This document shows positions 3,994-57,697 of a DNA stretch of 57,697 bases, piece after piece. Source of the stretch: Cyanobium sp. ATX 6A2 (GTDB lineage: Bacteria; Cyanobacteriota; Cyanobacteriia; PCC-6307; Cyanobiaceae). A program made the position numbers and the translations under genes. Where the stretch lies: positions 1-57,697 of the forward strand of contig NZ_JAGQCU010000019.1 of NCBI RefSeq assembly GCF_024346355.1, given 5' to 3'. The notes beneath the pieces were generated by a model, which saw nothing but the letters and a program-made list of their open reading frames with translations, made no database searches and was not told where the DNA came from. Within the stretch, counting starts at the first letter, position 1. The number at the start of each line of letters is the position of its first letter.

Positions 3994-6388
<2,395 letters not shown>

Positions 6389-6466
6389 GGGGCCGAATCA
6401 GCCGGGCATGGTGCTCACGGTAAGCAGATCGGCCAGACTGGTCACCACGAAGCTCGCCTCCCGCCG

Positions 6467-6988: not shown

Positions 6989-7051
6989 TCTGGTCGACCG
7001 GGGGACATCTGGGCCAGTTCTGGCTTAGCTGGAGCAAAGCCAGCCAACGCC

Positions 7052-7303: not shown

Positions 7304-7338
7304 TGATGAGCCCCTGGGGCCAAGGTTGAAGCTGGGGG

Positions 7339-7657: not shown

Positions 7658-8509
7658 ATGGGGACGATGCCGATCCCACCCAGAATTCTCACGCTGCTCA
7701 TCGGCACTGCCCTTGTGCTGGTGGGCCTGTGGGTGGGACAGAACGTGAACCTGCTGCCAGTCGATGCCAGCGTCAACGCTCCACTTTACGACGAGCTTTT
7801 CAAGGTGCTGTTCAGCATCGGCACCACCTTGTTCATTGGCATCGTGGGAATGGTCCTCTACAGCCTGACGCGATTCCGTCGCCGCAGCGACACGGCTGGG
7901 GAAGTCCTGGCCGTGGAGGGCAATCTACCGCTGGAGATCCTCTGGACCGCCATTCCGGCCGTGGTGGTGCTGTTTGTGGGGATCTACAGCTTCGACATCT
8001 ATGACCGGATGGGCGGCATGGTGCCGATGCACGATCACAGCATGGCCAGCATGCAAACCGCACAGGAGCCAGAGGAGAAGACCTGGGCTGGCATCAGCCC
8101 GGCGTCCGTGGAAGGCGAGCCCCCTGCAACAGCAGTACCGATTGAGGTCACCGCCATGCAGTTTGCCTTCATTTTTCATTATCCAGAAGCAGATATCATC
8201 AGTGGCGAACTCCATGTTCCTGCAGGCCAGCCCGTATCCCTGCGAATGACGGCCAATGACGTCATTCATGCCTTCTGGGTGCCGGAGTTCAGGCTCAAGC
8301 AGGACATCATTCCCGGCCAGCCCACCCTGCTGAGCTTTACGGCAACCCGTCCGGGCCGCTATCCGATCGTGTGCGCTGAGCTCTGTGGCGCCTACCACGG
8401 CGGCATGCGCTCCACCGTGATCGTTGAAGAACCCGAGGATTTCGCCAACTGGGTTGCCCAGAACAGCCCCGTGAAGGCCACGCCCACCAGCTCAGCGGTG
8501 ATCTCATGA
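7658..8509 (+). CDS. ctaC: Cytochrome c oxidase subunit II
   Basis: Subunit II of the aa3-type terminal oxidase, which takes electrons from cytochrome c or plastocyanin through its CuA centre on the lumenal or periplasmic side. The 283-residue protein has two N-terminal membrane helices (about 8-28 and 48-70, then 88-110 after a linker) and a cupredoxin domain. The CuA ligands are seen in VIHAFWVPEF and CAELCGAYHGGM. A Met/His-rich linker (MGGMVPMHDHSMASM) precedes the cupredoxin fold. Start is ATG 7658, with ATG 7667 as an alternative. The stop overlaps ctaD by four bases (ATGA). Confidence 0.96.
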   Translation: MGTMPIPPRILTLLIGTALVLVGLWVGQNVNLLPVDASVNAPLYDELFKVLFSIGTTLFIGIVGMVLYSLTRFRRRSDTAGEVLAVEGNLPLEILWTAIPAVVVLFVGIYSFDIYDRMGGMVPMHDHSMASMQTAQEPEEKTWAGISPASVEGEPPATAVPIEVTAMQFAFIFHYPEADIISGELHVPAGQPVSLRMTANDVIHAFWVPEFRLKQDIIPGQPTLLSFTATRPGRYPIVCAELCGAYHGGMRSTVIVEEPEDFANWVAQNSPVKATPTSSAVIS

Positions 8510-10125: not shown

Positions 10126-10736
10126 CAACCAGCCTTCCCGGACCCGCCAGCGGCCAGAACGCCACTGAGCACTCCGCTGCCGAAAGCACCGAGCACCATC
10201 CCGATCACCGCCTGTTCGGCCTGGCCACGTTCCTGGTGGCCGACGGCATGACCTTTGCCGGCTTTTTCGCCGCCTACCTCACCTTCCGCGCGGTCAATCC
10301 CCTCCCGGAAGGGGCCATCTACGAGCTGGAGCTGCTGCTGCCCAGCATCAACACCGTGCTGCTGCTGGTGAGCAGCTTCACCTTCCACAGGGCGGGGTCA
10401 GCCCTGAAGCGCGACGATCGTCAGCTCTGCCGGCGCTGGCTGCTGATCACCGCCACCCTGGGCCTCCTCTTCCTGGCCGCCCAGCTGAAGGAGTACTTCT
10501 CCCTGCCCTTCGGCCTCACCGACAACCTCTACGGCAGCACCTTCTACGCGATCACCGGCTTTCACGGTCTGCATGTGACCCTGGGCTCGCTGATGATCCT
10601 GATCATCTGGTGGCAGAGCCGCGAAGGGGGCCGGGTGAGCAGCCAGAACCGCTTCCCTCTCGAGGCCACGGAGCTCTACTGGCACTTCGTGGATGGGATC
10701 TGGGTGGTGCTCTACGGCATTCTCTACCTGCTGTAG
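10122..10736 (+). CDS. ctaE: Cytochrome c oxidase subunit III
   Basis: A 204-residue membrane subunit with five hydrophobic helices. Family motifs include FGLATFLVADGMTFAGFFAAYL near the first helix and TGFHGLHVTLGS and ELYWHFVDGIWVVLY near the end; the last carries the conserved WHFVD(G/V)VW signature. It is shorter than mitochondrial subunit III and has the cyanobacterial length. It ends 21 bases before the radA stop on the other strand, leaving little room for a terminator. Confidence 0.96.
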   Translation: MTTSLPGPASGQNATEHSAAESTEHHPDHRLFGLATFLVADGMTFAGFFAAYLTFRAVNPLPEGAIYELELLLPSINTVLLLVSSFTFHRAGSALKRDDRQLCRRWLLITATLGLLFLAAQLKEYFSLPFGLTDNLYGSTFYAITGFHGLHVTLGSLMILIIWWQSREGGRVSSQNRFPLEATELYWHFVDGIWVVLYGILYLL

Positions 10737-10757
10737 CCGGAATCCTCTGGCGCTCGA

Positions 10758-12209
10758 TCAGCCCCGGTCGTCGGCCGGATCCACCCCCAGGGCCGCCACC
10801 AGGGCCTCGGCCACCGTGGTGGCCTCGAGCAACTGCACGCCCGCGCCGGCGGCAGCGGGCCCCAGGCCGCTGCCCTTGGGCACCACCGCCCGGTTGAAGC
10901 CCAGCCGCCCCGCCTCCTGCAGGCGCAGCTCCAACTGACCCACCGGCCGCAGCTGGCCACCCAGGCCCAGCTCGGCGATCAGCACGGTGCCCGGCGGCAG
11001 GGTCAAGTCACGAAAACTGGCGACCACGGCGGCAGCCACACCCAGATCAGCGGCCGGCTCCTCCACCTCCAGGCCGCCGGCCACGGCCAGGTAGCAGTCG
11101 AAGCGGGAGAAGGGCAGGCCGAGGTGCTTCTCCAGCACCGCCAGGATCTGGTGCAGCCGGTTCACGGCGATACCGGTGGCGCTGCGGCGGGGGCTGGCAT
11201 AGCTGGTGGTGCTCACCAGAGCCTGCAGTTCCACCAACAGGGGCCGGGTGCCCTCGCAGGCCACGATCGTGGCGGTGCCGCTGCTGGGCTCATTGGCCCC
11301 CAGAAACAGCTCACTGGGGTTGCTCACCTCCACCAGGCCCTGGCCCTGCATCTCGAACACCCCCAGCTCGTGGGTGGCCCCGAAGCGGTTCTTCACCGCC
11401 CGCAGCAGGCGGTGGCTGGCGAAGCGATCGCCCTCGAAGGTGAGCACCGCGTCCACCAGGTGCTCCAGCACCTTCGGCCCGGCGAGCATGCCCTCCTTGG
11501 TCACGTGGCCCACCAGCAGCAGGGCCGTGTCCTGGCGCTTGGCGATGCGGGCCAGGGCGGCGGCACACTCGCGCACCTGGGCCACCGAGCCGGGGGCGCT
11601 GCTGAGCTGATCGTCGTGCAGGGCCTGGATGCTGTCGATGATGGCCACCGCAGGCCGCAGGCTCTCCAGCTCCTGCAGCACCAGCTCCAGGTCGGTTTCC
11701 GCCAGCAGCTGCAGATCGGGATCCGCTGCCCCATCAACGGCAACCCCATCACCGGCGGCCTGTGGCGGCGCCAGCCGGCGCCAGCGCAGCTTCACCTGCT
11801 GGGCTGATTCCTCGGCGCTCACGTAGAGCACCGAGGCCCGATCGGCCATCGCCCGGGCGCTCTGGAGCAGCAGGGTGCTCTTGCCGATGCCGGGATCTCC
11901 CCCGAGCAGCACCAGCGAGCCCGGCACCAGGCCACCGCCGAGCACCCGGTCGAATTCGTCGTAACCGCTGCCGAGGCGCTGCAGCGGCAGCTCCCCCACC
12001 GCCCGGATCGAGGCCGAGCGGCGGGGCCGGGCGGCAGGGCCGGACTCGGGGCTCAGGGGCCGCCGCCGGCGTGCATCGGCTGCCGGCGCGGCCGCCTGCA
12101 GCTGCTCCACCAGAGTGTTCCAGCTGCCGCAACTGCTGCAGCGGCCGAAGAACTGGCGGGTCTGGGCGCCGCAGTGGCTGCAGACGTAGACAGTGACGGG
12201 CTTGGCCAA
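10758..12209 (-). CDS. radA: DNA repair protein RadA (Sms)
   Basis: A RecA-related ATPase/helicase that promotes branch migration in recombinational repair. The 483-residue protein begins MAKPVTVYVCSHCGAQ and has a four-Cys zinc finger (CSHCG...CSSCG), Walker A GGDPGIGKST near residue 104, the RadA-specific KNRFG motif near 268, and a Lon-like C-terminal domain ending near ALGVDPAD. All hallmarks are intact. It is divergent from rpaB across 114 bases. Confidence 0.95.
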   Translation of the reverse strand: MAKPVTVYVCSHCGAQTRQFFGRCSSCGSWNTLVEQLQAAAPAADARRRRPLSPESGPAARPRRSASIRAVGELPLQRLGSGYDEFDRVLGGGLVPGSLVLLGGDPGIGKSTLLLQSARAMADRASVLYVSAEESAQQVKLRWRRLAPPQAAGDGVAVDGAADPDLQLLAETDLELVLQELESLRPAVAIIDSIQALHDDQLSSAPGSVAQVRECAAALARIAKRQDTALLLVGHVTKEGMLAGPKVLEHLVDAVLTFEGDRFASHRLLRAVKNRFGATHELGVFEMQGQGLVEVSNPSELFLGANEPSSGTATIVACEGTRPLLVELQALVSTTSYASPRRSATGIAVNRLHQILAVLEKHLGLPFSRFDCYLAVAGGLEVEEPAADLGVAAAVVASFRDLTLPPGTVLIAELGLGGQLRPVGQLELRLQEAGRLGFNRAVVPKGSGLGPAAAGAGVQLLEATTVAEALVAALGVDPADDRG

Positions 12210-12323
12210 GGGGGTGAGGCGCTGAACGGTGGGGCGCCAACTATGAAGAAAGGTGGCGTTGCATGAATCCTGAGCCCTCGGACCTTTTCAGTAGGGGCCG
12301 TCTGATGTAACGGCCAAGGCGGC

Positions 12324-13082
12324 ATGACGGCCTCCCCCCCAAGCCCCAGCAAAGAGAAGGAGACGATCCTGGTCGTCGATGACGAGGCCAGCATCCGCCG
12401 GATTCTCGAAACACGCCTGTCGATGATCGGCTATCAGGTGGTCACGGCCAGCGATGGCCAGGAAGCCCTGGAAGCCTTCCGCACCAGCCAGCCCGATCTG
12501 GTGGTGCTCGACGTGATGATGCCCAAGCTCGACGGCTACGGGGTCTGTCAGGAGCTGCGCAAGGAATCGGACGTGCCGATCGTGATGCTCACCGCCCTGG
12601 GTGACGTGGCCGACCGCATCACCGGCCTGGAACTCGGGGCCGACGACTACGTGGTGAAGCCCTTCAGCCCCAAGGAGCTGGAGGCCCGCATCCGCTGCGT
12701 GCTGCGGCGGGTGGAGAAGGAATCCGTCGCCGGCATCCCCAACTCCGGGGTGATCGGCGTCGCCGACCTGCGCATCGACACCAACAAGCGTCAGGTGTAC
12801 CGGGGCGACGAGCGCATCCGCCTCACGGGCATGGAATTCAGCCTGCTGGAGCTGCTGGTGAGCCGCAGCGGCGAGCCCTTCAGCCGCGGCGAGATCCTCA
12901 AGGAGGTGTGGGGCTACACCCCTGAACGTCACGTGGACACCCGCGTGGTGGATGTTCACATCTCCCGGCTGCGCTCCAAACTGGAGGATGATCCGGCCAA
13001 CCCCGAGCTGATCCTCACGGCCCGGGGCACCGGCTATCTGTTCCAACGCATCGTCGAGCCCGTTGCCTCCGAAGGAGCCTGA
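12324..13082 (+). CDS. rpaB: Response regulator RpaB (Ycf27), OmpR family
   Basis: An essential cyanobacterial regulator that binds HLR1 sites and represses or activates high-light and photosystem genes; it works with the kinase NblS and opposes RpaA. The 252-residue protein has receiver motifs VDDE, LVVLDVMMPKLDG (phosphoacceptor Asp) and YVVKPF, and a winged helix with [42 protein letters not shown] and ARGTGYLFQRI. These are RpaB/Ycf27 signatures. Start is ATG 12324. A single TGTAAC half-site lies at about 12305. The plsX frame begins inside its last codons. Confidence 0.95.
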   Translation: MTASPPSPSKEKETILVVDDEASIRRILETRLSMIGYQVVTASDGQEALEAFRTSQPDLVVLDVMMPKLDGYGVCQELRKESDVPIVMLTALGDVADRITGLELGADDYVVKPFSPKELEARIRCVLRRVEKESVAGIPNSGVIGVADLRIDTNKRQVYRGDERIRLTGMEFSLLELLVSRSGEPFSRGEILKEVWGYTPERHVDTRVVDVHISRLRSKLEDDPANPELILTARGTGYLFQRIVEPVASEGA

Positions 13083-14394
13083 AAAGCGCACCAAACCCAG
13101 CCGCGCCATCCGGCGGCTGGTGATCTGGTATCGCCGCAACGCCGCCGTCACCAGCCTGGTGGGCACCGCCACCAGCGCCGGCACCATGGCCGGTTCGGTG
13201 GCCGGGGCGGCGGTGTCGGGGGCCGGCTCGGTGGCCGGTGCCGCCACCAGCGCCGCCCACACCGTGCTCACACCGCTGGTGTTCGATCCCCTGCGGCGAC
13301 TGCAGCGAGGCCTCGGCGGGCCGGACGAGAACACCCCGATCAACGAGGCCGACCGCCTCTGGGTGGCGGTGGATGGCATGGGCGGCGACCACGCCCCCGG
13401 ACCGATCCTGGAGGGCTGCCTGCAGGCCGTGGAGCGCCTGCCGCTGCGCGTGCGCTTCGTGGCGGAGACCGGTCCACTGCGGGCCGCTGTGCTGGAGCTG
13501 GGCTTGCAGGAGCAGCTCAACCAGGCCATCTCCCGGGGCTGGATCCAGCTGGTGCCCAGCGGCCCCTCGGTGGGCATGGACGAAGAGGCCACGGTGGTGC
13601 GGCGCAAGCGCGATGCCAGCATCAACCTGGCCATGGACCTGGTGAAGCAGGGCCAGGCCACAGCCGTGTACTCGGCCGGCAACTCCGGAGCCGTGATGGC
13701 CTCGGCGATCTTCCGGCTGGGCCGGCTGCGGGGCATTGACCGTCCTGCCATCGGCGCCCTCTTCCCCACCCGCGACCCGGAGCAACAGGTGCTCGTGCTC
13801 GACGTGGGCGCCAACATGGACTGCAAGCCCGAGTGGCTGCTGCAGTTCGCCCTGCTGGGCAACATCTACAGCCACGACGTGCTGCAGGTGAGCAGGCCGC
13901 GCATCGGCCTGGTGAACATCGGCGAGGAGGCCTGCAAGGGCAACGACCTCTGCCAGCGCACCTACGCGCTGCTGGCAGCTGAGCAGCGCTTCAGCTTCGC
14001 CGGCAACTGTGAGGGACGCGACATCCTCTCCGGCAAGTTCGATGTGGTGGTGTGTGACGGCTACACCGGCAACGTGCTGCTCAAGTTCCTGGAGAGCGTG
14101 GGCAGCGTGCTGCTCGATGTGATCAAGGTGGAGCTGCCCCGGGGACGGCGCGGCAAGGTGGGATCCGCCTTCCTGATCAACAACCTGCGCCGCATCAAGA
14201 AACGGCTTGACCATGCCGAGCACGGCGGCGCCCTGCTGCTCGGGGTCGACGGCGTCTGCGTGATCGGCCACGGCAGCAGCAAGGCGCTCTCGGTGCTGAG
14301 CGCCCTGCGGCTGGCCCATTCAGCCGCCAACCACGGCGTCATGGACGACCTGCACGCGCTCAGCGCCCAGGCCGGCGCCGTGGCCTGTGGTTGA
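13063..14394 (+). CDS. plsX: Phosphate acyltransferase PlsX
   Basis: Converts acyl-ACP to acyl-phosphate, the first step toward phosphatidic acid. The enzyme core starts at LWVAVDGMGGDHAPG and includes VYSAGNSGAVMASA, LLLGVDGVCVIGHGSS and KRLDHAEHGGA, all conserved in PlsX. About 100 residues precede the core: a basic segment RAIRRLVIWYRRNA and a Gly/Ala/Ser-rich stretch. This extension is known from picocyanobacterial PlsX. The TTG at 13063 lies within rpaB (20-base overlap) and is the best candidate, though a GTG just downstream cannot be excluded. It is coupled to fabH. Confidence 0.92.
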   Translation: MPPKEPEKRTKPSRAIRRLVIWYRRNAAVTSLVGTATSAGTMAGSVAGAAVSGAGSVAGAATSAAHTVLTPLVFDPLRRLQRGLGGPDENTPINEADRLWVAVDGMGGDHAPGPILEGCLQAVERLPLRVRFVAETGPLRAAVLELGLQEQLNQAISRGWIQLVPSGPSVGMDEEATVVRRKRDASINLAMDLVKQGQATAVYSAGNSGAVMASAIFRLGRLRGIDRPAIGALFPTRDPEQQVLVLDVGANMDCKPEWLLQFALLGNIYSHDVLQVSRPRIGLVNIGEEACKGNDLCQRTYALLAAEQRFSFAGNCEGRDILSGKFDVVVCDGYTGNVLLKFLESVGSVLLDVIKVELPRGRRGKVGSAFLINNLRRIKKRLDHAEHGGALLLGVDGVCVIGHGSSKALSVLSALRLAHSAANHGVMDDLHALSAQAGAVACG

Positions 14395-47635: not shown

Positions 47636-47654
47636 AGGCCAAGCCGCTCGGCAC

Positions 47655-48053
47655 TCACCAGAGCGTCTGACAAGGGAAGGCAGCCAGGGCCGGATCGGCG
47701 GTGAGCAGCACCAGCCGCTCCAGTTCGGCCTGCGCCGCCAGCATGCGATCGAAGGGGTCGCGGAGGGGCTGGCGATAAGCGCCGGCCCGCAGCCCATGGG
47801 CCAGGGCAATCGGCAGGGACTGGAAGCCATCGGCCTGCAGCAGGCCCGGCAGGTCGGCGATGGCGGTGTCCAGCTCCGGCAGCTTGCCTTGATGGTGCTT
47901 GAGGCTCAGTTCCCACACCGATGCAGCACTCACCAGGATCGCGGTGCCGGGGTCGATGAGCAGGGCCTGCACCGGAGCTGAGAGGCGCTCGGGATCGAAC
48001 CACCACCACAGCAGCACGTGACTGTCGAGCAGGTAGGCGGGTGGAGCACTCAA
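47655..48053 (-). CDS. PIN-domain toxin (VapC-like)
   Basis: A 132-residue PIN-domain ribonuclease. Acidic residues that should bind metal are seen in YLLDSHVLLWW (Asp9-Ser-His form), ASVWELSLK (Glu) and LRDPFDRMLAAQA (Asp), with ALTADP-like LLTADPAL at the end. The SHVLLWW variant is typical of the PIN family paired with Phd/YefM antitoxins. TTG 48053 overlaps the antitoxin stop by four bases (TTGA). Confidence 0.88.
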   Translation of the reverse strand: MSAPPAYLLDSHVLLWWWFDPERLSAPVQALLIDPGTAILVSAASVWELSLKHHQGKLPELDTAIADLPGLLQADGFQSLPIALAHGLRAGAYRQPLRDPFDRMLAAQAELERLVLLTADPALAAFPCQTLW

Positions 48054-48379
48054 GGCTGGGGCATCCAGGGCGTCAGCGGGCCGTTCTCCCAGGCGGCGAG
48101 CTCCTCGGGCTCCAGGGGCTCGAGCAGGCCATCGGGCTGGCGGAGGGGACCCCGGCTACGCAGGCGGCCGGGAATGCGCTGGGGGGATGGCGGCGCGAGG
48201 GGCATCAGCCGGGCCCAGGGTTTGCCGGCCTTGGCGAGCAGGATGGTCTCGCCGGCGTGGGCGTCGTCGATCAGGCGCGAGAGGTGGGTTTTCGCCTGGT
48301 GCACATTCACCGTTCGCAGGGGAACAGCGGTGCTCCGGACGTCCGGATCTGGAACAGAGGCAGGCGGGTCGGTTTTCAT
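48050..48379 (-). CDS. Phd/YefM-type antitoxin
   Basis: A 109-residue protein partner of the PIN toxin. The conserved core is TVNVHQAKTHLSRLIDDAHAGETILLAKAGKPWARLMPL, the Phd fold; the C-terminal tail binds the toxin. I chose ATG 48379. The next in-frame ATG upstream (48415) would place the start codon within the palindrome pair at 48407-48429, which is more likely the operator. The variable stretch between the start and TVNVHQ is unusually long. Confidence 0.82.
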   Translation of the reverse strand: MKTDPPASVPDPDVRSTAVPLRTVNVHQAKTHLSRLIDDAHAGETILLAKAGKPWARLMPLAPPSPQRIPGRLRSRGPLRQPDGLLEPLEPEELAAWENGPLTPWMPQP

Positions 48380-48406
48380 GGCCCGAGAGCCAGACAGGCG
48401 ATAGAG

Positions 48407-48429
48407 CTTAGTCATGGACTAAGTCCATG
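48407..48429. promoter_or_regulatory. Overlapping palindromes, candidate operator of Phd/PIN operon
   Basis: CTTAGTC-ATG-GACTAAG (48407-48423) is a perfect inverted repeat. Shifted by six bases, CATGGACT-A-AGTCCATG (48413-48429) is a second perfect one, sharing GACT. This is the arrangement expected for cooperative binding by an autorepressing antitoxin. It lies 28 bases upstream of the preferred antitoxin start. Binding is inference. Confidence 0.6.
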
Positions 48430-48437
48430 GGTGGAAC

Positions 48438-48809
48438 TCAAAAGCCCGCCTTGGCGAAATCGTCGCCGATGTAGGCCAGGGGCAACTGATCACGCTCAGC
48501 CAGGGCCGCCGCAAAGCAATCCCCAAAGTTGAGCTGGGCCGGATGGCCCTGGCCCTTGCCGAAACGCTGGAAGATCCCCAGCGCGCGCTTTGCCAGATCC
48601 GCATCCACCGGCACCACATCGGGGTCAATCAGATCCAGCAACGTCTGCATCGGTGCGAGCACACCACGGCAGTGAGCCACCAGCAGCAGCTCCTGCAGGG
48701 TGCCTGCCGACAGACGCAGCACTTCAGCCTGCTCCAGGGACTGCTGGTGTTGCTCCCACCCCGGTTCCCGCTGCAGGATCGCCAGCAGCAGCGACGTATC
48801 CAGAATCAC
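48438..48809 (-). CDS. vapC: PIN-domain toxin VapC
   Basis: A 123-residue PIN ribonuclease starting at GTG 48809: ILDTSLLLAILQREPGW (first Asp), ELLLVAHCRG (Glu), and LNFGDCFAAALAERDQLPLAYIGDDFAKAGF (later Asp residues; the LxxGDxFxAALA pattern). This is the VapC subfamily paired with short Rv0623-type VapB. Its start overlaps the vapB stop (GTGA). VapC toxins cleave tRNA or rRNA; target unknown. Confidence 0.9.
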   Translation of the reverse strand: MILDTSLLLAILQREPGWEQHQQSLEQAEVLRLSAGTLQELLLVAHCRGVLAPMQTLLDLIDPDVVPVDADLAKRALGIFQRFGKGQGHPAQLNFGDCFAAALAERDQLPLAYIGDDFAKAGF

Positions 48810-49048
48810 GCCGGCAGGCCCTGCTCGTCATAGAGCGAAGCGGGATTGAAGGGCCTGGCCGTTTCCGTGGCTTGCTCCTGCAGCAGGGGCAACTCGGCAC
48901 TGAGCCGCCTCCGCCGGCTGAGGCGCCGCTGCCGCTGAAGCTCCAGCTCCAGCGCCTCCCGCACGATCTCCGTGGCGCCCCGGCCCGTGAGCTGGCGCAG
49001 CTGCTCAAGCAGGGCGTCCACTCGAGGGCTCTTGATGCTGACAGCCAT
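48806..49048 (-). CDS. vapB: VapB antitoxin (Rv0623/PSK type)
   Basis: An 80-residue antitoxin. MAVSIKSPRVDALLEQLRQLTGRGATEIVREALELELQRQRR is the N-terminal ribbon-helix-helix-like DNA-binding part with PRVDxLxxxLxxLTGxxxTExVxxAL; the C-terminal region (FNPASLYDEQGLP) is the toxin-neutralising tail. ATG 49048 is preceded by TAGGA. A 12-base palindrome 25 bases upstream is a candidate operator. Next to cysC, divergent across about 120 bases. Confidence 0.88.
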   Translation of the reverse strand: MAVSIKSPRVDALLEQLRQLTGRGATEIVREALELELQRQRRLSRRRRLSAELPLLQEQATETARPFNPASLYDEQGLPA

Positions 49049-49072
49049 TCCTACAGGAGCTAGGTAGACTGA

Positions 49073-49084
49073 GATTCTAGAATC
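49073..49084. promoter_or_regulatory. Palindrome GATTCTAGAATC, candidate vapBC operator
   Basis: GATTCTAGAATC is perfectly self-complementary. It lies 25 bases upstream of the vapB ATG in the vapB-cysC divergent interval, the expected place for the binding site of an autorepressing VapB. It also sits in the cysC upstream region, so it could influence cysC. Function is inferred. Confidence 0.55.
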
Positions 49085-49169
49085 AAGTTCAGACGACAGG
49101 GCAACCCTGCAGGTCCTGAAGAGGGGCGCAGGGGAGAATGGCCCGATCGCCCCCACCGCCCAAGCCCGC

Positions 49170-49829
49170 ATGACCGCCAGCCCCGCCAGCAACCCCGCCT
49201 ACGGGGCGCTCACCACCCAGGGCAACAGCACCAACATCGTGTGGCACCACAGCACGGTGAGCCGCGAGGCGCGGGCCCACCAGCGCGGCCACCGCAGCGC
49301 CATCCTCTGGTTCACGGGCCTGAGCGGGGCTGGCAAGAGCACCCTGGCCAACGCGGTGAATTCGGCCCTGTTCGAGCAGGGCCTGGCCTGCTACGTGCTC
49401 GACGGCGACAACATCCGCCACGGCCTCTGCAACGACCTGGGCTTCTCCGACGCCGACCGGGAGGAGAACATCCGCCGCATCGGCGAGGTGGCCAAGCTGT
49501 TCCTCGATGCCGGCGTGGTGGTGCTCACCGCCTTCGTGTCGCCGTTCAAGGCCGACCGTGACAAGGTGCGCGCCCTGGTGCCGGACGGCGACTTCATCGA
49601 GATCTTCTGCGACGCCGGCCTGGCGGTGTGCGAAGAGCGCGACACCAAGGGACTCTACGCCAAGGCCCGGGCCGGTGAGATCAAGGAATTCACGGGGATC
49701 TCCAGCCCCTACGAGGCGCCCGAGACCCCGGAGCTGCGGGTGGAGACCGGTGCCCAAAGCCTGGAGAACTGCGTGAGCGCGGTGCTGGCTCTGCTAGAGG
49801 GCAGGGGCGTCATTCCCCAGACGAACTGA
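49170..49829 (+). CDS. cysC: Adenylylsulfate (APS) kinase
   Basis: Phosphorylates APS to PAPS, the sulfate donor for sulfotransferases and an intermediate in assimilation. The 219-residue protein has the P-loop GLSGAGKST at 50-58, the APS-binding VLDGDNIRHGLCNDLGFS, and the lid EENIRRIGEVAKLF, and ends GISSPYEAPETPEL. All catalytic blocks are intact. Its 3' end overlaps the AI-2E-type permease by 20 bases. A truncated second copy lies 1.8 kb downstream. Confidence 0.95.
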   Translation: MTASPASNPAYGALTTQGNSTNIVWHHSTVSREARAHQRGHRSAILWFTGLSGAGKSTLANAVNSALFEQGLACYVLDGDNIRHGLCNDLGFSDADREENIRRIGEVAKLFLDAGVVVLTAFVSPFKADRDKVRALVPDGDFIEIFCDAGLAVCEERDTKGLYAKARAGEIKEFTGISSPYEAPETPELRVETGAQSLENCVSAVLALLEGRGVIPQTN

Positions 49830-50880
49830 GCCGCAGCCGGCTTCCCCAGGCATCAAGGAAGGTTTTCCCGCAGCTGGCCACCGGCACCGCCAGCAGCAGC
49901 CCCAGCAGCTCACCCAGCCCCAGCAGCGCCCCGAGGCGAGCGCCCAGGGGAAGACACACCAGCAACCAGGCGGGCTGCAGACCCACGATCTTGCCCATCA
50001 GGCGCGGCTGGATCACCTGATCCACCACCTGGCCCACGGCGATGGCGGCCACCAGCACCTCCAGGCCGGTGCTGGGATCGTTGAGGGCCAGCAGGGCACT
50101 CACCAACAGGATCGTGAGTGAGCTGGCGAAGGGAATCAGGGTGGTGAAGCCGATCAGCACCGCAAACAGCACGCCATAGGGAATCGCCAGCACGGTGAAC
50201 ACCACCGTCTGCAGGCTGCTGAGGATCAGGGCCAGCAGCACCTGGCCGGCGAAGTAGCCGCGGAAAGTGCGGCCCACGGTGTCCACCACCAGGGAGCGCA
50301 CGCCGGGAGGCAACCAGAGCGCCAGGCCGGCGGCGATGCTCTCACCGCCCAGCAGCAGGAACACCGCCAGCACCAGCACGATCACCGTATTGATGGTGAG
50401 ACCCACCGTGGCGCCCAGCACACCCAGCAGCCGTTGGCTGAACTGACTGGCCAACCGGCTGAGGCGTGTGAGCAGATCACTGCTGAGGCTGCCGAAATCG
50501 GTAGGTAGCCCCTGCTGTGCCGCCCAGGCTTCGAGGGCATCCAGCCACACCTGGCCCTTGGAGATCCAGCGGGGCAGCACCACGATCAAATCGCCCAGCT
50601 GCTCCACCAGGCGCGGCACGAGCCCCAGCAGCGCCAGTGCCAGTGCCCCCAGGGCCACCGCCAGCACCAGGGCCATGGCCGCCGGGCGGGGAACCCCCCG
50701 CTGCCGCAGCCAGCGGCTGGGGATGTCGAGCAGGAAGGCGATCAGCGCGGCGGTGACGATCAGGGCCGGAAACGGCGCCAGCGGCAGCAGCAGCTGGCGC
50801 AGCACCCAGAGGTTGAGCACCAGCAGCGGCAGCGCCAGGCCGGCCTTCAGCCAGGGGGGGAGTTCCAGGCGTTCGAGCAT
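49810..50880 (-). CDS. AI-2E transporter family permease
   Basis: A 356-residue membrane protein with about seven to eight helices of the AI-2E (TqsA/PerM) family. It starts [25 protein letters not shown] and includes LVPRLVEQLGDL, PYGVLFAVLIGFTTLIPF and ALLALNDPSTGLEV, VGQVVDQVIQPRLMGKIVGL. The family name is historical; most members do not handle autoinducer-2 and some are ion/proton exporters. Substrate unknown. The 5' half is nearly duplicated in the next feature. Confidence 0.85.
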   Translation of the reverse strand: MLERLELPPWLKAGLALPLLVLNLWVLRQLLLPLAPFPALIVTAALIAFLLDIPSRWLRQRGVPRPAAMALVLAVALGALALALLGLVPRLVEQLGDLIVVLPRWISKGQVWLDALEAWAAQQGLPTDFGSLSSDLLTRLSRLASQFSQRLLGVLGATVGLTINTVIVLVLAVFLLLGGESIAAGLALWLPPGVRSLVVDTVGRTFRGYFAGQVLLALILSSLQTVVFTVLAIPYGVLFAVLIGFTTLIPFASSLTILLVSALLALNDPSTGLEVLVAAIAVGQVVDQVIQPRLMGKIVGLQPAWLLVCLPLGARLGALLGLGELLGLLLAVPVASCGKTFLDAWGSRLRLSSSGE

Positions 50881-50967
50881 GGGGGTGATCTGCGCTGATG
50901 GGGATAGTGGCAGGGCTGGCTGCCATCAGCTCCTGCAGGCCAGCGAATAGCCGCAGGGGGGGGTGCG

Positions 50968-51461
50968 GTGTTGACCGTGAGGCCCAGCGTGGCCCCCAAC
51001 AGGCCCAGGAGTTGCTGGCTGAGCTGGCTGGCGAGCTTGCTGAGGCGGGTGAGCAGATCACTGCTGAGATTGCCGAAATCGGTGGGGATGCCCTGCTGGC
51101 TCGCCCAGGCTTCCAGGCGATCAAGCCACACCTCACCCTGGGCCAGCCAACCGGGCATGGCAGCCACCAGGTCGCCCAGCTGCTCGATCAGCCGCGGCAC
51201 CAGCCAGATCAGCGCCAGGGCCACCAGCCCCAGACTCCCCCCCAGCACCAGGGCGATCGCCAATCCCCGCGGCAAGCCGCGCTGCCAGAGCCAACGGGCC
51301 GGGATGTCGAGCAGAAACGCGATCAACGCCGCCGCCACAAACAGGGCCGGGAAAGGCGCCAACGGCAGCAGCAGCTGACGCAACACCCAGAGGTTCAGCA
51401 CCAGCAGCGGCAACGCCAGGCCGGCCTTGAGCCAGGGGGGCAGAACCAGGCGTTCGAGCAT
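50968..51461 (-). pseudogene. Truncated duplicate of the AI-2E-type permease
   Basis: From ATG 51461 the frame reads [20 protein letters not shown] and stays closely similar to the intact permease to its left for about 165 residues (through [10 protein letters not shown]). It then breaks off into unrelated residues after a run of eight G at 50956-50963. The missing part is the C-terminal half, including the QVIQPRLMG region. The two copies are alike at DNA level, so the duplication is not very old. Confidence 0.85.
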
Positions 51462-51609
51462 GAAGGGATCTCCACTGTCACATCTTGCCGCGCTCGACGA
51501 CGACCTCGCCGAAGCCGTCAATCGGCCCGCACGCCTGCCGGACAGAGCTCCTATCGGGCCATTCTTCCTCTAGGAACGAGTCGGCTCAGGATCGAGCTGT
51601 GCTGTTCAG

Positions 51610-51779
51610 CGCTTAAGCACAAGGGCAACAACACCAACATCATGTGGCACCACAGCGCCATCCTTTGGTTCACAGGGCTGAGCGGGGCCGGCAAGAGCAC
51701 CCTGGCCAATGCCGTGAACTCGGCCCTGTTCAAGCAGGGGCTGGCCTGCTACGCGCTCGGTGGCGACAACATCCGCTGG
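51610..51779 (+). pseudogene. Truncated duplicate of cysC
   Basis: Matches cysC from [13 protein letters not shown] through the P-loop GLSGAGKST to [10 protein letters not shown], then stops. Relative to cysC it lacks 42 bases (14 codons) between HHS and AILWF, an in-frame deletion bounded by AGC in both flanks. The P-loop is intact but the APS-binding region after DNIR is gone, so the fragment cannot make a whole enzyme. Beyond DNIR it runs directly into the IS66 remnant. Confidence 0.85.
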
Positions 51780-52474
51780 CCAGCCTCATTATAGGCGGAC
51801 AGCCGCCGCCATCGAGCTGCTGGGCAGCACCTTTGGCGGGATTGTGGTGAGCGATCGCTTCTCGGCCTACAAGCACCTGCCCACCCAGCAACGCCAGCTG
51901 TGCTGGGCGCATCTGATCCTCGACCTGGTCGCCATCGCCGAACTGCCGGGCTCCATCGCCGAGTTCGGCGCGGAACTCTTGGACCTGCAGCGACAGCTGT
52001 TTGATCACTGGCACCGCTACAAGAGCAGAACGATCGACTGGTCCGCCTTGCAACAGAGCTGCCGGCCGACCCGACAGGCCTTTGAGGCAATGCTGCAAAG
52101 GGTGGTGGAGCTTGGCTACCAGCGGGGCGAGCAAACACCTTGGGCCAAGACGGTCCGCACCTGCCTGCAAATCCTGCAGCTGGCCGATGGCCTTTGGACC
52201 TTCCTGGAGACCGAGGGAATCGAGCCCACCAACAACGCGGCTGAGCGTGCCCTGCGCCAGTCGGTGATTCAGCGCAAGATTCAGTCATGGCTTCCAGTCC
52301 CGCCAGGGAGCGATCTGCCGCAGCCGCCTGCTCACCGTCACGACCAGCCTCAGGAAACAGGGCCGCTATGTCTGGGAGTTCCTGGAGCAAGCCTGGATTG
52401 CCCATCACCGTGGCGGGATGTGCCGTCACTACTGCCCGATCCCTGAATCAGCAGCAGAGAGCACTGCTTCTTGA
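51780..52474 (+). pseudogene. IS66-family transposase remnant
   Basis: The C-terminal two thirds of an IS66 (TnpC) transposase. SDRFSAYKHLPTQQRQLCWAHL carries an Asp of the DDE triad and EPTNNAAERALRQSVIQRKI its Glu. The N-terminus is missing; homology starts directly at the cysC fragment. After QRKI one extra base shifts the frame; the correct reading continues in another frame as SHGFQSRQGAICRS and later WEFLEQAWIAHHRGG to the TGA at 52472-52474. No inverted repeat found. Non-functional. Confidence 0.85.
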
Positions 52475-52918
52475 TCACTCAGCGATGAGCTTTGAGGCAT
52501 GGAGTCCTGCAGCGGGGGGTCCTGAGCCCTGAACGCAAACTGGAAAACTTTGGAAGGCTTTTCGGCGGAAATGAGCCGATCTGCGCAGATTCTATCACAC
52601 AACTGCCGCAGATCCACTGAAGTGCAGGTGATCTGGCCTTTCTCAGGAGGCGACATTTTGGGAATCTTGAACAAGCCAGATCGACAGCGGTGCATTATAT
52701 TTCAGCGATCGATACCCAATAACCTGGCCTCTATTAGGGCAATTGATGATTGCCGAAAATGCTGAACATTTTAATTGAGATGAAGTCTCTTGAATGGGTG
52801 ACACAGACAGAGTTCTTCTGCCCTGGCGCCTGACCGGCGGCGTCTATGAGCACTATGTAACCAAAGGGATACTGTTTCTCAAGGTGCCTTTTCTACAAAT
52901 TTGCATTCTGATCTCCAA
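52475..52918. other. Intergenic, no gene recognised
   Basis: The 444 bases between the IS66 remnant and the glycosyltransferase fragment hold no frame I can support. Composition changes here from GC-rich to distinctly AT-rich, about 52650 onward, so a junction of the island lies inside. Confidence 0.6.
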
Positions 52919-53601
52919 TCAATGTAAGTTGTCTTTCGGGATATCCGTACCTAGATCCTCGATCGTCGCGCCGAAGCTGCCATGGTAAACGTTCATTATA
53001 TTAGTTGAATAAGCCGCATCTATTGCAATTAGATGATCAGATCGCAAATACCTAACTAGCTTTCGCGTGCTTCTCCCCCTGAATATCGAGAAGTGAGCGC
53101 CACCAAAGATATTATGCGAATTGCCAGGGGACGAATAACGTGACTCATGGTGTGGCGAAGTGAATTTGCAAACCTCATTAGTGCTATGCCAACAGTCTCT
53201 GATAATATCCCAGTCTCTGCTTATGTATTTAGATGCGACTGCTTGCTGAATTCTACTAAAGACATCGTCGGCCAGGCGACAGTCATCTTCAAGAATGACG
53301 TAATTTCCACAACCTTCACGGAGTGCTTATGATGAATGTTCCAATGTGATATATAAACTCCAAATACACCACATGCTCTTGCGTGCGTTCTTTCGCTGTT
53401 GGCATAATCGCGGAACCTCGCCGTTGCTCGGAGATAGGACATATGGTGCTCACCAGACGCATTGACTAAGGATGATATTGCTGGCCTGATTCCTTCGACC
53501 CTTTCAAACGCTATATCGAAGCGGCTTAGCTGTGAACGCATGAAACTGAGACGATCTTTACGATCTGCTAGATTAATAAAATATATTTTGTCAATTTTCA
53601 T
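52919..53601 (-). pseudogene. Family-25 glycosyltransferase, frameshifted
   Basis: GT25 enzymes transfer sugars (often galactose) to lipopolysaccharide or other glycans. From ATG 53601 the frame reads MKIDKIYFINLADRKDRLSFM, the GT25 start, then VYISHWNIHHKHS. Near 53313-53321 the frame shifts; the next frame continues EGCGNYVILEDDCRLADDV (LEDD is the metal-binding motif) and on to NIFGGAHFSIFRG, YHGSFGATIEDLG and a TGA at 52919-52921. Total size about 228 residues. Either a real frameshift or a sequencing error. AT-rich and unlike its core neighbours. Confidence 0.8.
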
Positions 53602-53853
53602 ATGATCTATTAATTTTGAAGAGAGGTCCTTAGCATCCTGGCCAATCTTTTGAGGGGCAATCAAGACACGGAGAAGGCTTTGAGGGTCGCGGAGGCTTAT
53701 CTGTAATCCAATTCTACTACGTGCCTTCGATGGGATCTGGCAACTGAAGCGGTGTCCTTTGGTAGTCCCTCGGCTCTTAGCCTCAGAGAAACTTTGCGTT
53801 TGCCAGTGGAGCGCCACTTGATGGAAAGCAAGCTCCTGGTCACTTTTTCGTGC

Positions 53854-54603
53854 TCAAGCTGAAGACCTTGGCCAGCTATCTTGGCTATAGTTGAAGACTT
53901 GAAAGTCACTTTTGCAGTATTCGTATATAAGGTTTGCGACATGCTCGTCAAACGCCAATTCAGGGGGTGGCCCAATTCTTTGATTTACTTTTGTCCCAAC
54001 GGTGGCAAGCACTTCTTCGGAAGCACCTAAAGCGGTAAGAATATATACAAAGTCGGTAGCGAAGAATTCATACTTACCAATAAAGGTGTACTTTATTTGG
54101 TCTATGCCGAGTAACCTGTGCTGTAATTCCCAATGGGGGTCGCGGGTGTCTTGAGGCGCTTGTGAGATATATTCTATGAAGTTCCTAAACGTAATGCCGC
54201 CTCTTCTATTCAGTTCTTTTCTAACTGCATTGTACTCTGGGTAGGAAAAGTTGTGTAATTGATTTTCGAATGCTGAATACATTCTGTAATAGGGATTCCG
54301 AACAAAAGAAAATCGGTACCAGCGATTTGAATTGATTATCTGGTGCTGCTTTTCGCTGCTAAAGTCCAGCAAGTTTCTGGGGTATCGAAGAGCGGAATCC
54401 GCTCTGTCGTGGATATCAAGAATGCGGTCTGGAAGTCGATACCCTTCCATCTTCTGAAGCGAAAGCTTTACTCTTGTGCAGGCTGTCTTTGGCGTTCCGA
54501 AGTAAAGGTATCTATTTTTTTCCGAGACCCATGTATGGTATGCTATATTTTTGCTGAAAAGCCAACCTTTGCTTTTCAGGGGGAGATCTCTTCGGTTGTT
54601 CAT
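53854..54603 (-). CDS. Carbohydrate sulfotransferase family 2
   Basis: A 249-residue sulfotransferase, using PAPS to sulfate a carbohydrate. The 5'-phosphosulfate loop is RYLYFGTPKTACTRVKLSLQ and the 3'-phosphate site is RWYRFSFVRNPYYRMYSAFEN, as in family 2 (HNK-1/chondroitin type). The ends look intact, with ATG 54603. Composition is AT-rich, pointing to transfer from elsewhere. It shares direction with the GT25 remnant, 252 bases upstream of it. PAPS would come from cysC. The acceptor, probably a surface polysaccharide, is inferred. Confidence 0.85.
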   Translation of the reverse strand: MNNRRDLPLKSKGWLFSKNIAYHTWVSEKNRYLYFGTPKTACTRVKLSLQKMEGYRLPDRILDIHDRADSALRYPRNLLDFSSEKQHQIINSNRWYRFSFVRNPYYRMYSAFENQLHNFSYPEYNAVRKELNRRGGITFRNFIEYISQAPQDTRDPHWELQHRLLGIDQIKYTFIGKYEFFATDFVYILTALGASEEVLATVGTKVNQRIGPPPELAFDEHVANLIYEYCKSDFQVFNYSQDSWPRSSA

Positions 54604-54997
54604 GGCACTGGCTAGTGAAAGAAATTGGCTGGGAAGAAGTAGTTCATTCTCTCGTCATGGCAAGAAGGGTCTGTTCACTAGCTGCCTGAAAGCTCTGGGC
54701 CTCGAAGCCAGCCGATGGACTTATCTACTGCCGTCCTTAGAAAGGATCATGAATTTACCTTAGGATTATATCATTCACTTTCATGCTGCTCTGACTGTGG
54801 ATGGGCATCTTTTGACACCCCATGCTGTGGGGTCCTCCCAACTCAGGGCCTATGAGAGGGCATTCAGAGTGCCTCGCTGCCGTCGCGGGTCAGGGCTGAT
54901 TAAAAGTCATATCATTCCGTCTCACCCAGGCGGCCGCGTCCCTTCGTGTGGTGTAAATCCCGAGGCCCGATTGCCCTGATCTGAGGGTGAAAAGGGT
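54604..54997. other. AT-rich intergenic region, no gene recognised
   Basis: I find no supported gene. The only structure is a hairpin, ACCCCA (54817-54822) with TGGGGT (54828-54833). A promoter for the sulfotransferase is likely near its left end but not identifiable. Confidence 0.5.
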
Positions 54998-55090
54998 GGA
55001 ATGACGGGCTGTCATTCCGGAGGTGCATATACACCTCATTCTTTCATGATGAATCCAGACGATTGACTTGTCAAGTCTTTCGTCTGGATT
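54998..55090. repeat. Cluster of three stem-loops next to the IS256 remnant
   Basis: Three perfect or near-perfect inverted repeats follow one another: GGAATGAC-GGGCT-GTCATTCC (54998-55018), GAGGTG-CATATA-CACCTC (55020-55037), and a two-level hairpin at 55052-55090 with outer arms AATCCAGACGA / TCGTCTGGATT, mismatched TT-TT, and inner arms GACTTG / CAAGTC around one T. No T tract follows any of them. They may be mobile-element ends or structured RNA. Bases 55091-55215 hold nothing else recognisable. Confidence 0.75.
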
Positions 55091-55215
55091 GCCGATCGGT
55101 TGTGGGCTACGCCTGCAATCTTGATCGTGACGTCTTGTGCACCGGCCCCCGGGCGGTGACCCCCCGCCGCTGCGCCCTGTGGGGGCGCTACGGCGCGATC
55201 ACCTGGGGCCTGAGC

Positions 55216-56424
55216 TCAGGCCGCTGCTTCCTGCAGGGAGGGCTGCGCAGGCACCTCCAGCGAGGGGATGGCGACCATGCTCTCGGCGGAGAACATGCGC
55301 CGGCCCTCGAGCTGCCAGTGCTCGTCCTGCTCCAACAGCACAGCCCCCACCAGGCGAGTGATCGAGGCGTCGTTCGGGAAGATCACGACGACGCGGGTGC
55401 GGCGTTTGACCTCCTCGTTGAGGCGTTCCAGCAGATTGGTGCTCCACACTTTTTTCCAGTGGGGTTACGGGAAGTGGCGGAAGGCGAGGACGTCTTCCTT
55501 GGCTTCCAGCATCAACCCCGTAGCTCTCGGAAAGCGCTCAGCCAGCGAGTTGGCCAAATCATCCCAGCGGCTCGCGATCTCGCTGGCGTCTTCTTGGGCA
55601 AACACCGAGCGCAGGGCAGCGGTGACCATGCCCTGGTGGGCTTTTGGCACGCGCTGAAGCAGGTTCCTGGCAAAATGCACCCGACAGCGCTGCCAGGCGC
55701 AGCCTTGCAGCTGCCGGCGGATTGCCTTGGTGAGGCCCACGTGGGCGTCGCTGATCACCAGCTTGACGCCAGTGAGGCCGCGCTCCTTGAGCGAGCCAAT
55801 GAACTCGCTCCAGAAGCTCTCGCTTTCGCTGTCGCCCACCTGCAGGCCGAGCAGCTCACGTCGGCCGTCGGCGTTGACGCCCATGGCGACGACCACGGCT
55901 CTGGAGCAGACCTGCAGGGCCTTGCCCAGGCGGCCGTGGAGGTAGGTGGCATCGAGGTAAACGTAGGCGTAGCCGGTCTCCTCAAGGGGACGGTTCAGGA
56001 AGGCCTGCACCTGCACGTCGATGTCGGCGCAGATGCGGCTGACCTTGGATTTCGAGATGCCGCTCTGAACCCCAAGGGCTGCCACCAGGGCATCGACCTT
56101 CCTGGTGGAGATGCCGCCAACGTAGGCCTCCATCACCACGCCATAGAACGCTTGATCAACCCGGCGGCGGGGCTCGAAGATCGAGGGCAGGAAGCCGCTG
56201 TTGCGCAGTTTGGGGATCTGCAGGTCGATGTCGCCCGCCTGGGTGGCGAGGCTGCGAGGCCGGTAGCCGTTGCGGTAGCCGAGCCGATCGCCGGTGCGTT
56301 CGTGGCGGTCGGCGCCGATGAAGGCAGCGACCTCGAGCTCGATCAGGTCCTGCAGGCCTTGTCGCGCGATCTCAGGCATCAGCTCACCGGCGCTGCTGCC
56401 TTGCAGTAGCGGTGCCACCCCCAA
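55216..56424 (-). pseudogene. IS256 (Mutator-like) transposase with internal stop
   Basis: A 402-codon frame of the IS256 family. The first part has FIGADRHERTGDRLGYRNGYR, YVYLDATYLHG (first Asp), VKLVISDAHVGLTKAI (second Asp) and WQRCRVHFARNLLQRVPK. In-frame after AFRHFP comes TAA (55465-55467), where relatives have CAA (Gln); reading then continues PHWKKVWSTNLLERLNEEVKRRT, carrying the third catalytic residue Glu. A single C-to-T change thus removes the Glu domain. TTG 56424 is the first start. No clear terminal repeats were found. Confidence 0.88.
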
Positions 56425-56436
56425 GAAAGGAAGCTT

Positions 56437-56728
56437 TCACGATTGGGCAGGTCAGGTAGAGCTACCAGTCTGGAAAGCCTCCCAAGCTACTGCCCCTCCC
56501 CAAAAAGCTTGTGATTATGAGCTTGAACATATGTTTGCAATCACATGGGACGGCCGTATCGCAGCCTGCTGCTATGACATTGAGGCTCAAACCACCCTTT
56601 CTATTGATGATATAATCGCTGATGGCTTTACCTTCTCACCTGTCAAGCTTTGCGCAACATGCACCCTTGGGCGTGGTGATAGCAGTTGGCTAGTTCGGCC
56701 TTCAATCAGTCCACAGGCAGTCACTTGA
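56437..56728 (+). pseudogene. C-terminal remnant of a radical SAM/SPASM protein
   Basis: About 96 codons open directly beyond the IS256 remnant: HDWAGQVELPVWKAS, then CDYELEHMFAITWDGRIAACCYDIE, and CATCTLGRG near the end. The spacing of Cys (C, CC-D, C-x2-C) is the SPASM auxiliary-cluster pattern found at the end of radical SAM enzymes of glycan loci. The radical SAM core (CxxxCxxC) is absent and not found to the left of the IS, so the gene is truncated. It overlaps the next gene by eight bases convergently. Confidence 0.78.
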
Positions 56729-57596
56729 CTGCTCGGCCTAGCACGGTTTGAGGGTAGTGAGGATCGTCAGGTGCGGCAGGAAAGCATTTTAGATCCTCTA
56801 AACTGAGACCCTGTAGAAAGGATATCGAAGTAAATATATTCCCTTTGCTGCTCACTTCGATCTTCTCTTTGCTGAAGTTAAGCAGCAGCAGTTGCCTTAG
56901 TGAGTTGGGAGTGAAGCTCCACATCCAGTTGTCGTGCCATTCCCCCTTGTCAATATTTGAGATGCCCGGCACGGTTATCAGCGCAACGCCCCCTGGCTTA
57001 AGAATGCGGTGGATCGTGGCAACCGTGGCTTGCAGGTCGAAAATCACCACCAGCACCTGCGTCAGGATGAGGCAGTCGAAGCTGTTGTCAGCAATATGAG
57101 GAGCATTACTTAGATCTCCAATGATTGTTGCCCCAGGAGATCCTTCTTTGACATGAAGTACATCACTTTCGGTCACCCGATTGTCTCCATACTGTTTTGT
57201 ATAGCTGTTGTCCCCGATCTCCAGCACTCGGCCGCAGATATCCCACCTGTGTTTTTCGAGGAATTCCTCGATGAAGGGTCGGTCAATTGGCGTCCCCCGA
57301 TCGTAGCCGAAGATACGGCTGATCGGTTCGATACGTGCTAGGTCGCCAAAATCTACTTTTCCAACTTCAGGCCTTTCAGTTCTCCACTGCAATTTCTGAC
57401 ATGAGACCCCAATTTTGATTTTCATGCTTGCCTCTCGACATAGTTTAAGCCATTGTTCTGATTTAATTCCAAGATCATACTGATCGTATAGAATTTCAGG
57501 TACTTCTGGTTTTTGGGTAAAGTCGTAGCGAGGGGCAAGTCGAAACCTCTCCACTTCAAGAGGAAATGTTTTAAGGGTACCTCGAAAAATCAGCAA
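56721..57596 (-). CDS. SAM-dependent methyltransferase with PIG-L-like head
   Basis: A 291-residue frame. Residues about 1-50 (FPLEVERFRLAPRYDFTQKPEV...) resemble the C-terminal end of PIG-L sugar deacetylases; residues about 100-290 are a class I methyltransferase: GRVLEIGDNSYTKQYG (motif I, EIG instead of the usual GxGxG), NAPHIADNSFDCLILTQVL and HRILKPGGVALITVPG. The TTG start at 57596 is provisional. To its right, VINQLADFSRYP in another frame would continue the PIG-L match, so the gene may be a frameshifted fusion. AT-rich. Probable role in surface-glycan modification. Confidence 0.7.
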   Translation of the reverse strand: MLIFRGTLKTFPLEVERFRLAPRYDFTQKPEVPEILYDQYDLGIKSEQWLKLCREASMKIKIGVSCQKLQWRTERPEVGKVDFGDLARIEPISRIFGYDRGTPIDRPFIEEFLEKHRWDICGRVLEIGDNSYTKQYGDNRVTESDVLHVKEGSPGATIIGDLSNAPHIADNSFDCLILTQVLVVIFDLQATVATIHRILKPGGVALITVPGISNIDKGEWHDNWMWSFTPNSLRQLLLLNFSKEKIEVSSKGNIFTSISFLQGLSLEDLKCFPAAPDDPHYPQTVLGRAVK

Positions 57597-57697
57597 GCTG
57601 GTTGATTACGCTGGAATAGCGATAGAATCAGGAGATCAGACTGCATGCCAGCGGTGGGCCAAAGAGGTTTTTGGGACGAACAGCAAAGGGTCGCAAA
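57597..57697 (-). pseudogene. Possible disrupted PIG-L deacetylase end
   Basis: On the minus strand one frame reads YRYSSVINQLADFSRYP, which leads sensibly into LEVERFRLAPRYDF of the next feature after a one-base shift at the TTTTT at about 57585-57589. A TGA lies just ahead in that frame. The remaining bases to the window edge are not recognised. Only weakly supported. Confidence 0.35.

Follow-up and report, generated by a model that had tools for sequence, protein, structure and literature searches.

A decaying surface-glycan island, probably acquired horizontally, at a variable purE-perM-cysC site of Cyanobium

Sulfotransferases of the families PF00685, PF03567 and PF13469 occur in various cyanobacterial genomes, mostly within polysaccharide clusters, according to the part of the study by Maeda et al. 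(PMC8205485) on which we draw. Among the systems described there, the xss (synechan) cluster of Synechocystis sp. PCC 6803 makes a sulfated extracellular polysaccharide from glycosyltransferase and sulfotransferase genes that stand together; it is carried on a megaplasmid and is accompanied by Wzx/Wzy genes and regulators. Wider parallels come from the genomic islands of picocyanobacteria, presented in the relevant part of PMC7522525 as species-variable regions of gained genes, and from the hypervariable regions (HVR) of SAR11, where HVR2 holds mainly surface genes of the lipopolysaccharide (LPS) type and HVR4 lists a sulfotransferase (PMC2217521, in the portion used here). Here we analyze a stretch of 57,697 nucleotides from Cyanobium sp. 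ATX 6A2 (the window), which is the entire contig C11 of a 3.0-Mb assembly in 46 contigs (genome G000). We read its right end as part of a horizontally acquired, decaying surface-glycan island between perM and purE, with a probability of roughly three in four. This reading is based on foreign composition, gene content, broken genes, a left border and AT-rich DNA beside purE on another contig, together with a site that six relatives of the genus have uninterrupted and that two others have filled with different glycan genes. Like xss, the locus combines glycosyltransferase and sulfotransferase genes; unlike xss, it is broken and chromosomal, and no export or polymerase gene is seen in 52.5-57.7 kb of what is an incompletely assembled island. 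It also differs from the islands in the cited parts of PMC7522525 and PMC2217521 in that the Cyanobium copy is decaying. In our best reading, it is an accessory glycan island of an ordinary kind, decaying at a variable site and now located precisely; no description of the purE-perM-cysC site of Cyanobium was found in the literature searched, most subscription journals lying outside its coverage. The features of the island end, including elements of insertion sequence (IS) families, are as follows.

52919-53601, minus strand: GT25-like glycosyltransferase gene with one frameshift (three-frame translation)
53854-54603, minus strand: Sulfotransfer_2 sulfotransferase, intact, 249 amino acids (aa) (Pfam PF03567, E 4e-22)
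54930-56417, minus strand: IS256-family element, right end cut off (NF033543, E 4e-86 over 2-290 of 338)
56418-56728, plus strand: radical-SAM/SPASM gene, 3' remnant (73% DNA identity to contig C31)
56721-57574, minus strand: PIG-L-methyltransferase fusion gene, 3' part (residues 222-506 of a 506-aa relative on C31)
57575-57697, no strand assigned: end of a presumed insertion element, inside which the contig stops (inverted-repeat end)

A first-pass annotation, made from the sequence of the window, had claimed a sharp drop in composition after about 52.6 kb, and this is what we found. The guanine-plus-cytosine (GC) content per 1 kb lies at 0.59-0.78 across 1-52,000 and at 0.549, 0.450 and 0.469 across 52,001-55,000; it is 0.641 where IS256 lies and 0.569 from 56 to 57 kb. 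A search for one change point over 49,000-54,900 puts the best at 52,536, where GC passes from 0.666 on the left to 0.456 on the right; it coincides with the end of similarity to IS66 elements of relatives. The gene pieces tell the same story. Compared with 26 script-picked core genes of at least 100 aa located before 51 kb, whose GC at third codon positions (GC3) is 0.871 ± 0.046, the four pieces outside IS elements have z scores of -8.0 to -10.9 (GC3 of 0.462 for the sulfotransferase, z -8.9; 0.368 for the GT25 5' piece; 0.502 for the methyltransferase part; 0.412 for the SPASM piece). Codon-use log-odds agree, with z from -7.7 to -11.2 for these four pieces and -1.1 for the IS256 transposase, whose GC3 of 0.837 is core-like. 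Composition is not uniform, and composition and codon use differ from the core as in a genomic island. As for mobility, there are several IS remnants and no integrase among the scanned open reading frames (ORFs). A promoter scan, which returned 6 candidates against 3.0 expected, was not used as evidence.

An abrupt change of composition close to the end of a contig might also betray a chimeric assembly or contaminating DNA of another organism. We consider this very improbable: AT-rich DNA is joined to core purE on another contig (C45) of the same genome, in the relative G004 this locus has an AT-rich insert with glycan genes that is enclosed in a contig of 541 kb, genomes of the bacterial family have IS256 and IS66 copies like those of the window, and related modules are present on other contigs of the own genome. 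Equally little credence can be given to a prophage or phage-borne cassette. The sulfotransferase does match a PHROG of auxiliary genes, annotated as galactose-3-O-sulfotransferase, but weakly (E 5.5e-8); neither 50,697 phage records (E <= 1e-5) nor viral contigs scanned with a pattern yielded a relative of it, the Pfam-scanned ORFs of 52-57.7 kb include no integrase gene and no structural gene of a phage, and no tRNA lies near the site, the sole RNA gene found in the window being a tRNA-Asn at 1435.

The locus varies within the genus. We used purE-perM-cysC of G005 as a probe on 13 Cyanobium genomes, the own genome included; the genus name agrees with a sulfotransferase of G004 that is identical to one of Cyanobium sp. 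CH-040. (The name perM stands here for a gene whose family match is AI-2E_transport; purE, trpB and GT4-style class names were given by eye, without family search.) An uninterrupted single match was obtained in G005 itself and in G009, G006, G001, G003 and G007, that is, in 6 of the 12 genomes other than G000, which display the empty form of the site. In G004, 20.35 kb separate purE from perM; glycan-related families were recognized in seven of the ten larger ORFs scanned in this insert (group-1 GT, DegT aminotransferase, GT25, Sulfotransfer_3, GT61, GT2 and GT-D) and none in the other three. In G002, 9.0 kb lie between perM and cysC, and the four ORFs scanned comprise three of GT2 type, one of them with a methyltransferase domain too, and a polysaccharide deacetylase; the methyltransferase part of the GT2-methyltransferase shares 38% identity with the corresponding part of the C31 fusion. 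The 0.92 kb between purE and perM in G008 hold a single ORF with a weak, below-cut-off match only. The probe is split over contigs in G000, G010 and G012, and G011 shows cysC only. Presence and absence differ among close relatives, and the gene order is not common to all of them. The GT25 pieces of the window have no detectable relationship to the GT25 gene of G004, so the two cassettes differ, and the perM-adjacent 8.4 kb of the G004 insert found nothing in the own genome. The purE gene of G000 lies on C45, where a galactosyltransferase-like gene and AT-rich DNA (GC 0.41-0.58 over the first 5 kb) stand beside it; the latter makes an insertion likely in this genome; this AT-rich DNA is likely to be the right border of the same island. 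Near purE, C45 (L119) also carries a 581-aa AT-rich ORF (2684-4429) that has no match in Pfam, NCBIfam or PHROG.

The left border falls within the following features.

49170-49829, plus strand: cysC, adenylylsulfate (APS) kinase, a backbone gene adjoining the island (Pfam APS_kinase, E 1e-69; syntenic in relatives)
49810-50880, minus strand: perM, AI-2E family transporter, a backbone gene (Pfam AI-2E_transport, E 7e-55; syntenic in relatives)
50968-51461, minus strand: second perM scrap, 5' half (78.9% identity with the window's intact perM, 86.1% with that of G008)
51622-51781, plus strand: second cysC scrap with an internal deletion (sequence comparison)
51798-52536, plus strand: IS66 transposase remnant (Pfam DDE_Tnp_IS66, E 1e-17; elements of relatives similar up to 52536)
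52541-52651, no strand assigned: end piece of an IS5-type element (two further copies on own contig C15)

Since the perM scrap is closer to the G008 gene than to the intact copy beside it, we read the perM and cysC scraps as imported DNA, the former probably so; parts of 51491-51611, ahead of the cysC scrap, resemble cysC-adjacent DNA in G011. The right edge of the IS66 remnant is the composition boundary. One of the C15 copies of the IS5-type end piece directly adjoins an IS5 family transposase ORF. Pfam confirmed the mixture of glycan genes and IS remnants reported in the first-pass annotation (Sulfotransfer_2, methyltransferase, and pieces of IS256 (Mutator) and IS66 type), and the load of IS elements fits the roughly tenfold excess of transposases in freshwater and brackish over marine picocyanobacteria given in the cited part of PMC9361551.

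Most of the glycan genes are damaged. The GT25 sequence of the first-pass annotation is, in a two-frame reading, one GT25-like gene with a single frameshift near 53,327-53,345. Of its two pieces, the 5' piece (91 aa) matches PF01755 at E 3e-4 and the ORF scan of the window gave E 0.0013, both below cut-off; the 3' piece (135 aa) has no Pfam match, so the name comes from the 5' piece. The IS256 transposase frame is broken near 55450-55465, and the frame at 55216-55449 is, by eye, the C-terminal part of that transposase. Copies of this IS256 in G035 and G056 extend further right, the window copy being without about 32 bp; the DNA search of 99 genomes scored three candidates per genome, so that absences from it weigh little. 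At the IS256 junction the 5' part of the radical-SAM gene is missing. The radical SAM/SPASM call made at first holds as a below-cut-off SPASM match (E 0.005), and its extent is the last ~100 codons of a gene whose intact relative on C31 (L058:4152-4892) encodes 246 aa.

The next gene was first described as a PIG-L-like piece and, provisionally, an intact methyltransferase. The Pfam scan of ORFs of the window detected no PIG-L domain; the methyltransferase ORF matches residues 222-506 of the 506-aa fusion protein of C31 and starts at the inverted-repeat end at 57,575, and is therefore the 3' part of a PIG-L-methyltransferase gene. Contig C35 covers residues 14-225 of the same reference, and the TTAA found at 57571-57574 recurs there beside a repeat end. 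The 20-base end pattern occurs twice in the own genome (in the window and, reversed, on C35) and in none of the 12 other genus genomes, in a scan that allowed no mismatches and whose control gave 0. Given the shared repeat end, the flanking TTAA and the complementary gene halves, it is likely that a single element interrupts the PIG-L-methyltransferase gene and that C11 and C35 adjoin each other. No transposase family matched this element, and an IS4-like label, for which no support was found, was dropped. At E <= 1e-20, only G003 of 98 relatives matches the fusion over its full length besides the own genome, and G002, G075, G093 and G095 match its methyltransferase part only. The fusion and the 246-aa radical-SAM gene form an intact convergent pair on C31 (L058, 2639-4892), a pair rare in relatives; damaged forms of it are seen on C36 and on C11/C35. 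PADLOC returned only weak matches (radical-SAM to pVip, E 2.6e-7; methyltransferase to mad2, E 5.5e-5), and with the NCBIfam matches of the same proteins far under their cut-offs, a defence-system reading was set aside.

As the first-pass annotation had held, the sulfotransferase is the sole glycan-related gene found full-length in 52.5-57.7 kb. Its product matches PF03567 at 79.9 bits (curated cut-off 22) over positions 2-252 of the 252-position profile. In alignments of 14 and 21 rows, K39, R102, S110 and H157 are invariant or nearly so, and the presumed stretches for binding 3'-phosphoadenosine-5'-phosphosulfate (PAPS) are present (P38-K39, and V101-R102-N103-P104 with S110); we take these to be the 5'-phosphosulfate and 3'-phosphate binding motifs. 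A model built from the 21-row alignment has a predicted local distance difference test (pLDDT) score of 86.3, an earlier single-sequence fold (38.6) having been discarded. The best solved neighbour of this model is a heparan sulfate 6-O-sulfotransferase (Z 9.8, root-mean-square deviation 4.0, 181 residues aligned), followed by many sulfotransferases within ties, as Z differences below 1 were counted. Z reached at least 2 for 271 of 998 chains, and the 50 entries listed are sulfotransferases, by title in every case but Teg12. With Foldseek the best match had E 7.8e-3 and nothing passed E <= 0.001, so the predicted sulfotransferase fold is based on Pfam and on VIA structural comparison; a sequence search of solved structures yielded one match, at E 0.69. 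The protein thus resembles the heparan sulfate 2-O- and 6-O-sulfotransferases of PF03567 in its full-length Pfam match, presumed PAPS-binding stretches and predicted fold; unlike them, it is bacterial, and it is 9-16% identical to the 50 solved neighbours listed.

Structure by itself would allow a small molecule, a lipid or a peptide to be the substrate in place of a surface glycan, the fold being near-equal to that of small-molecule enzymes (SULT1A1, Z 8.4; StaL, Z 8.1; compare Z 8.5 for heparan sulfate 2-O-sulfotransferase). This seems improbable to us in view of the top two structural entries, both heparan sulfate 6-O-sulfotransferases (Z 9.8 and 9.4), the Sulfotransfer_2 and PHROG assignments and the glycan genes in the neighbourhood. 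Most likely, judging from family and setting, the enzyme uses PAPS and sulfates a surface glycan.

The idea that carbohydrate sulfotransferases are uncommon in picocyanobacteria, put forward in the first-pass annotation, needs correction: PF03567 is present in 12 of 13 genomes of the genus and in 103 of 300 of the family (E <= 0.001; 91 above cut-off), and G000 itself has four matches (C2, C44, C11 and, weakly, C22). What sets the window copy apart is its divergence. Ten of the 12 other genus genomes match it, at 23-30% identity only, and a single-sequence search of genome contigs found no close homologue. An alignment-based search returned 124 relatives; among the best 80 of these, the nearest are on two Chloroflexi metagenome-assembled genome (MAG) contigs (36-37% identity in this search, 34-37% over all comparisons), followed by a gammaproteobacterial MAG (36%). 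Around the sulfotransferase of one Chloroflexi locus (L157) lie larger ORFs that look glycan-related by eye. A tree of 42 rows (32 of the best 80 loci, 48 being excluded, plus 9 rows from further genomes and the window protein) places the window protein with two Chloroflexi proteins (99/94), apart from a 14-row picocyanobacterial clade (99/98). The donor cannot be identified from this tree because the end branch of the window protein is long (1.49) and several other long branches were flagged. In a search of the phylum, 4 of 386 genomes gave matches at E <= 1e-8, the own genome included, and the best other one belongs to a different family of the same class (31% identity), so the sulfotransferase may have originated inside the cyanobacteria. 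Relatives were found in 7 of 72,556 plasmid records, with 29.5% identity at best. Of the first-pass reading as a whole, the foreign AT-rich composition, the decay, the single intact sulfotransferase and the variation among relatives stand, and the rarity of the sulfotransferase and the methyltransferase as a whole gene do not.

We infer the following history. The island would have entered by recombination that carried along a perM piece of another species, and would formerly have helped to build and decorate a cell-surface polysaccharide or LPS side chain. IS elements would then have cut it: most of the radical-SAM gene would have been lost beside IS256, an element would have inserted in the PIG-L-methyltransferase gene, and the GT25-like gene would have acquired its frameshift. 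The APS kinase CysC makes PAPS, the sulfate donor. Its gene lies 4 kb from that of the sulfotransferase, which most likely transfers the sulfate of PAPS to a sugar hydroxyl of the glycan. Three glycan-related genes being broken in cis, its activity in vivo is uncertain. It could be a relic not yet mutated, or could act on glycans from related modules elsewhere (C31, C36); that it still modifies the surface is possible, but we lean against it.

A working arrangement in trans, with intact relatives on C31 and C36 supplying the missing steps, the sulfotransferase decorating the product and the broken copies being spare duplicates, appears somewhat unlikely. The material for it exists: C31 has, besides the intact 506-aa PIG-L-methyltransferase and 246-aa radical-SAM genes, an 801-aa ORF with a GT2 domain as well as a methyltransferase of FkbM type; on C36 there are a GT2 gene and a PIG-L-methyltransferase of 510 aa; and the frame of the sulfotransferase is intact while those of its neighbours are not. 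However, the radical-SAM gene of C36 is also without a start and, where the contig ends, passes into sequence unrelated to it, neither C31 nor C36 has a sulfotransferase match that would tie the enzyme to these modules, and an intact frame of 249 codons can outlast neutral decay for some time.

Several points weigh against the decaying island as we read it. It is not in one assembled piece; base-level support exists for the join of C11 to C35 only, and the positions of C31, C36 and C45 are deduced. The lack of an uninterrupted probe match in G000, G010, G012 and G011 could partly reflect assembly breaks, and among the seven genomes without such a match, a single-contig insert is seen only in G004, G002 and G008. 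The part within the window shows neither a polymerase nor an export gene, a negative that comes without a genome-wide search. The GT25 name depends on a below-cut-off match of the 5' piece, and the sulfotransferase model found no Foldseek match at the threshold used. No relative of the sulfotransferase above 37% identity was found, which puts selection on its gene out of reach of measurement.

Within the genus, the site offers a concrete case of coat turnover: the empty form can be set beside two different glycan inserts and a third insert in decay. It is tempting to speculate, tentatively, that purE-perM-cysC serves all of Cyanobium as an exchange site, where species would swap whole surface-glycan cassettes, part of them equipped with a sulfotransferase, through recombination in the housekeeping genes on the flanks; the scraps of perM and cysC would be the scars left behind, and the PAPS-making gene next door may favor the landing of sulfating enzymes. 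If so, the site would allow the exchange of coats exposed to phages and grazers to be followed.

Some further observations were made around these loci. On own contig C15 (L061), positions 1-13000 are likewise AT-rich and laden with IS elements, and elsewhere the contig has what look to be ribosomal protein genes; the starts of two of its ORFs (7862-8983 and 13107-13889) resemble sulfotransferase P-loops by eye, and Pfam finds nothing in them. Just upstream of cysC in the window, a PIN-domain gene (48438-48809), a second PIN-like ORF recognized by eye and small partner ORFs (47655-48809) resemble two VapBC-type toxin-antitoxin pairs; 47,644-49,122 has no alignment with DNA of five relatives. 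A second, divergent cysC, 79-82% identical to that of the window, is present in G011 (C142; L143, 1056-5643) and G012 (C35; L141), and in G011 its neighbours are ORFs that resemble, by eye, an ATP sulfurylase and a transporter.

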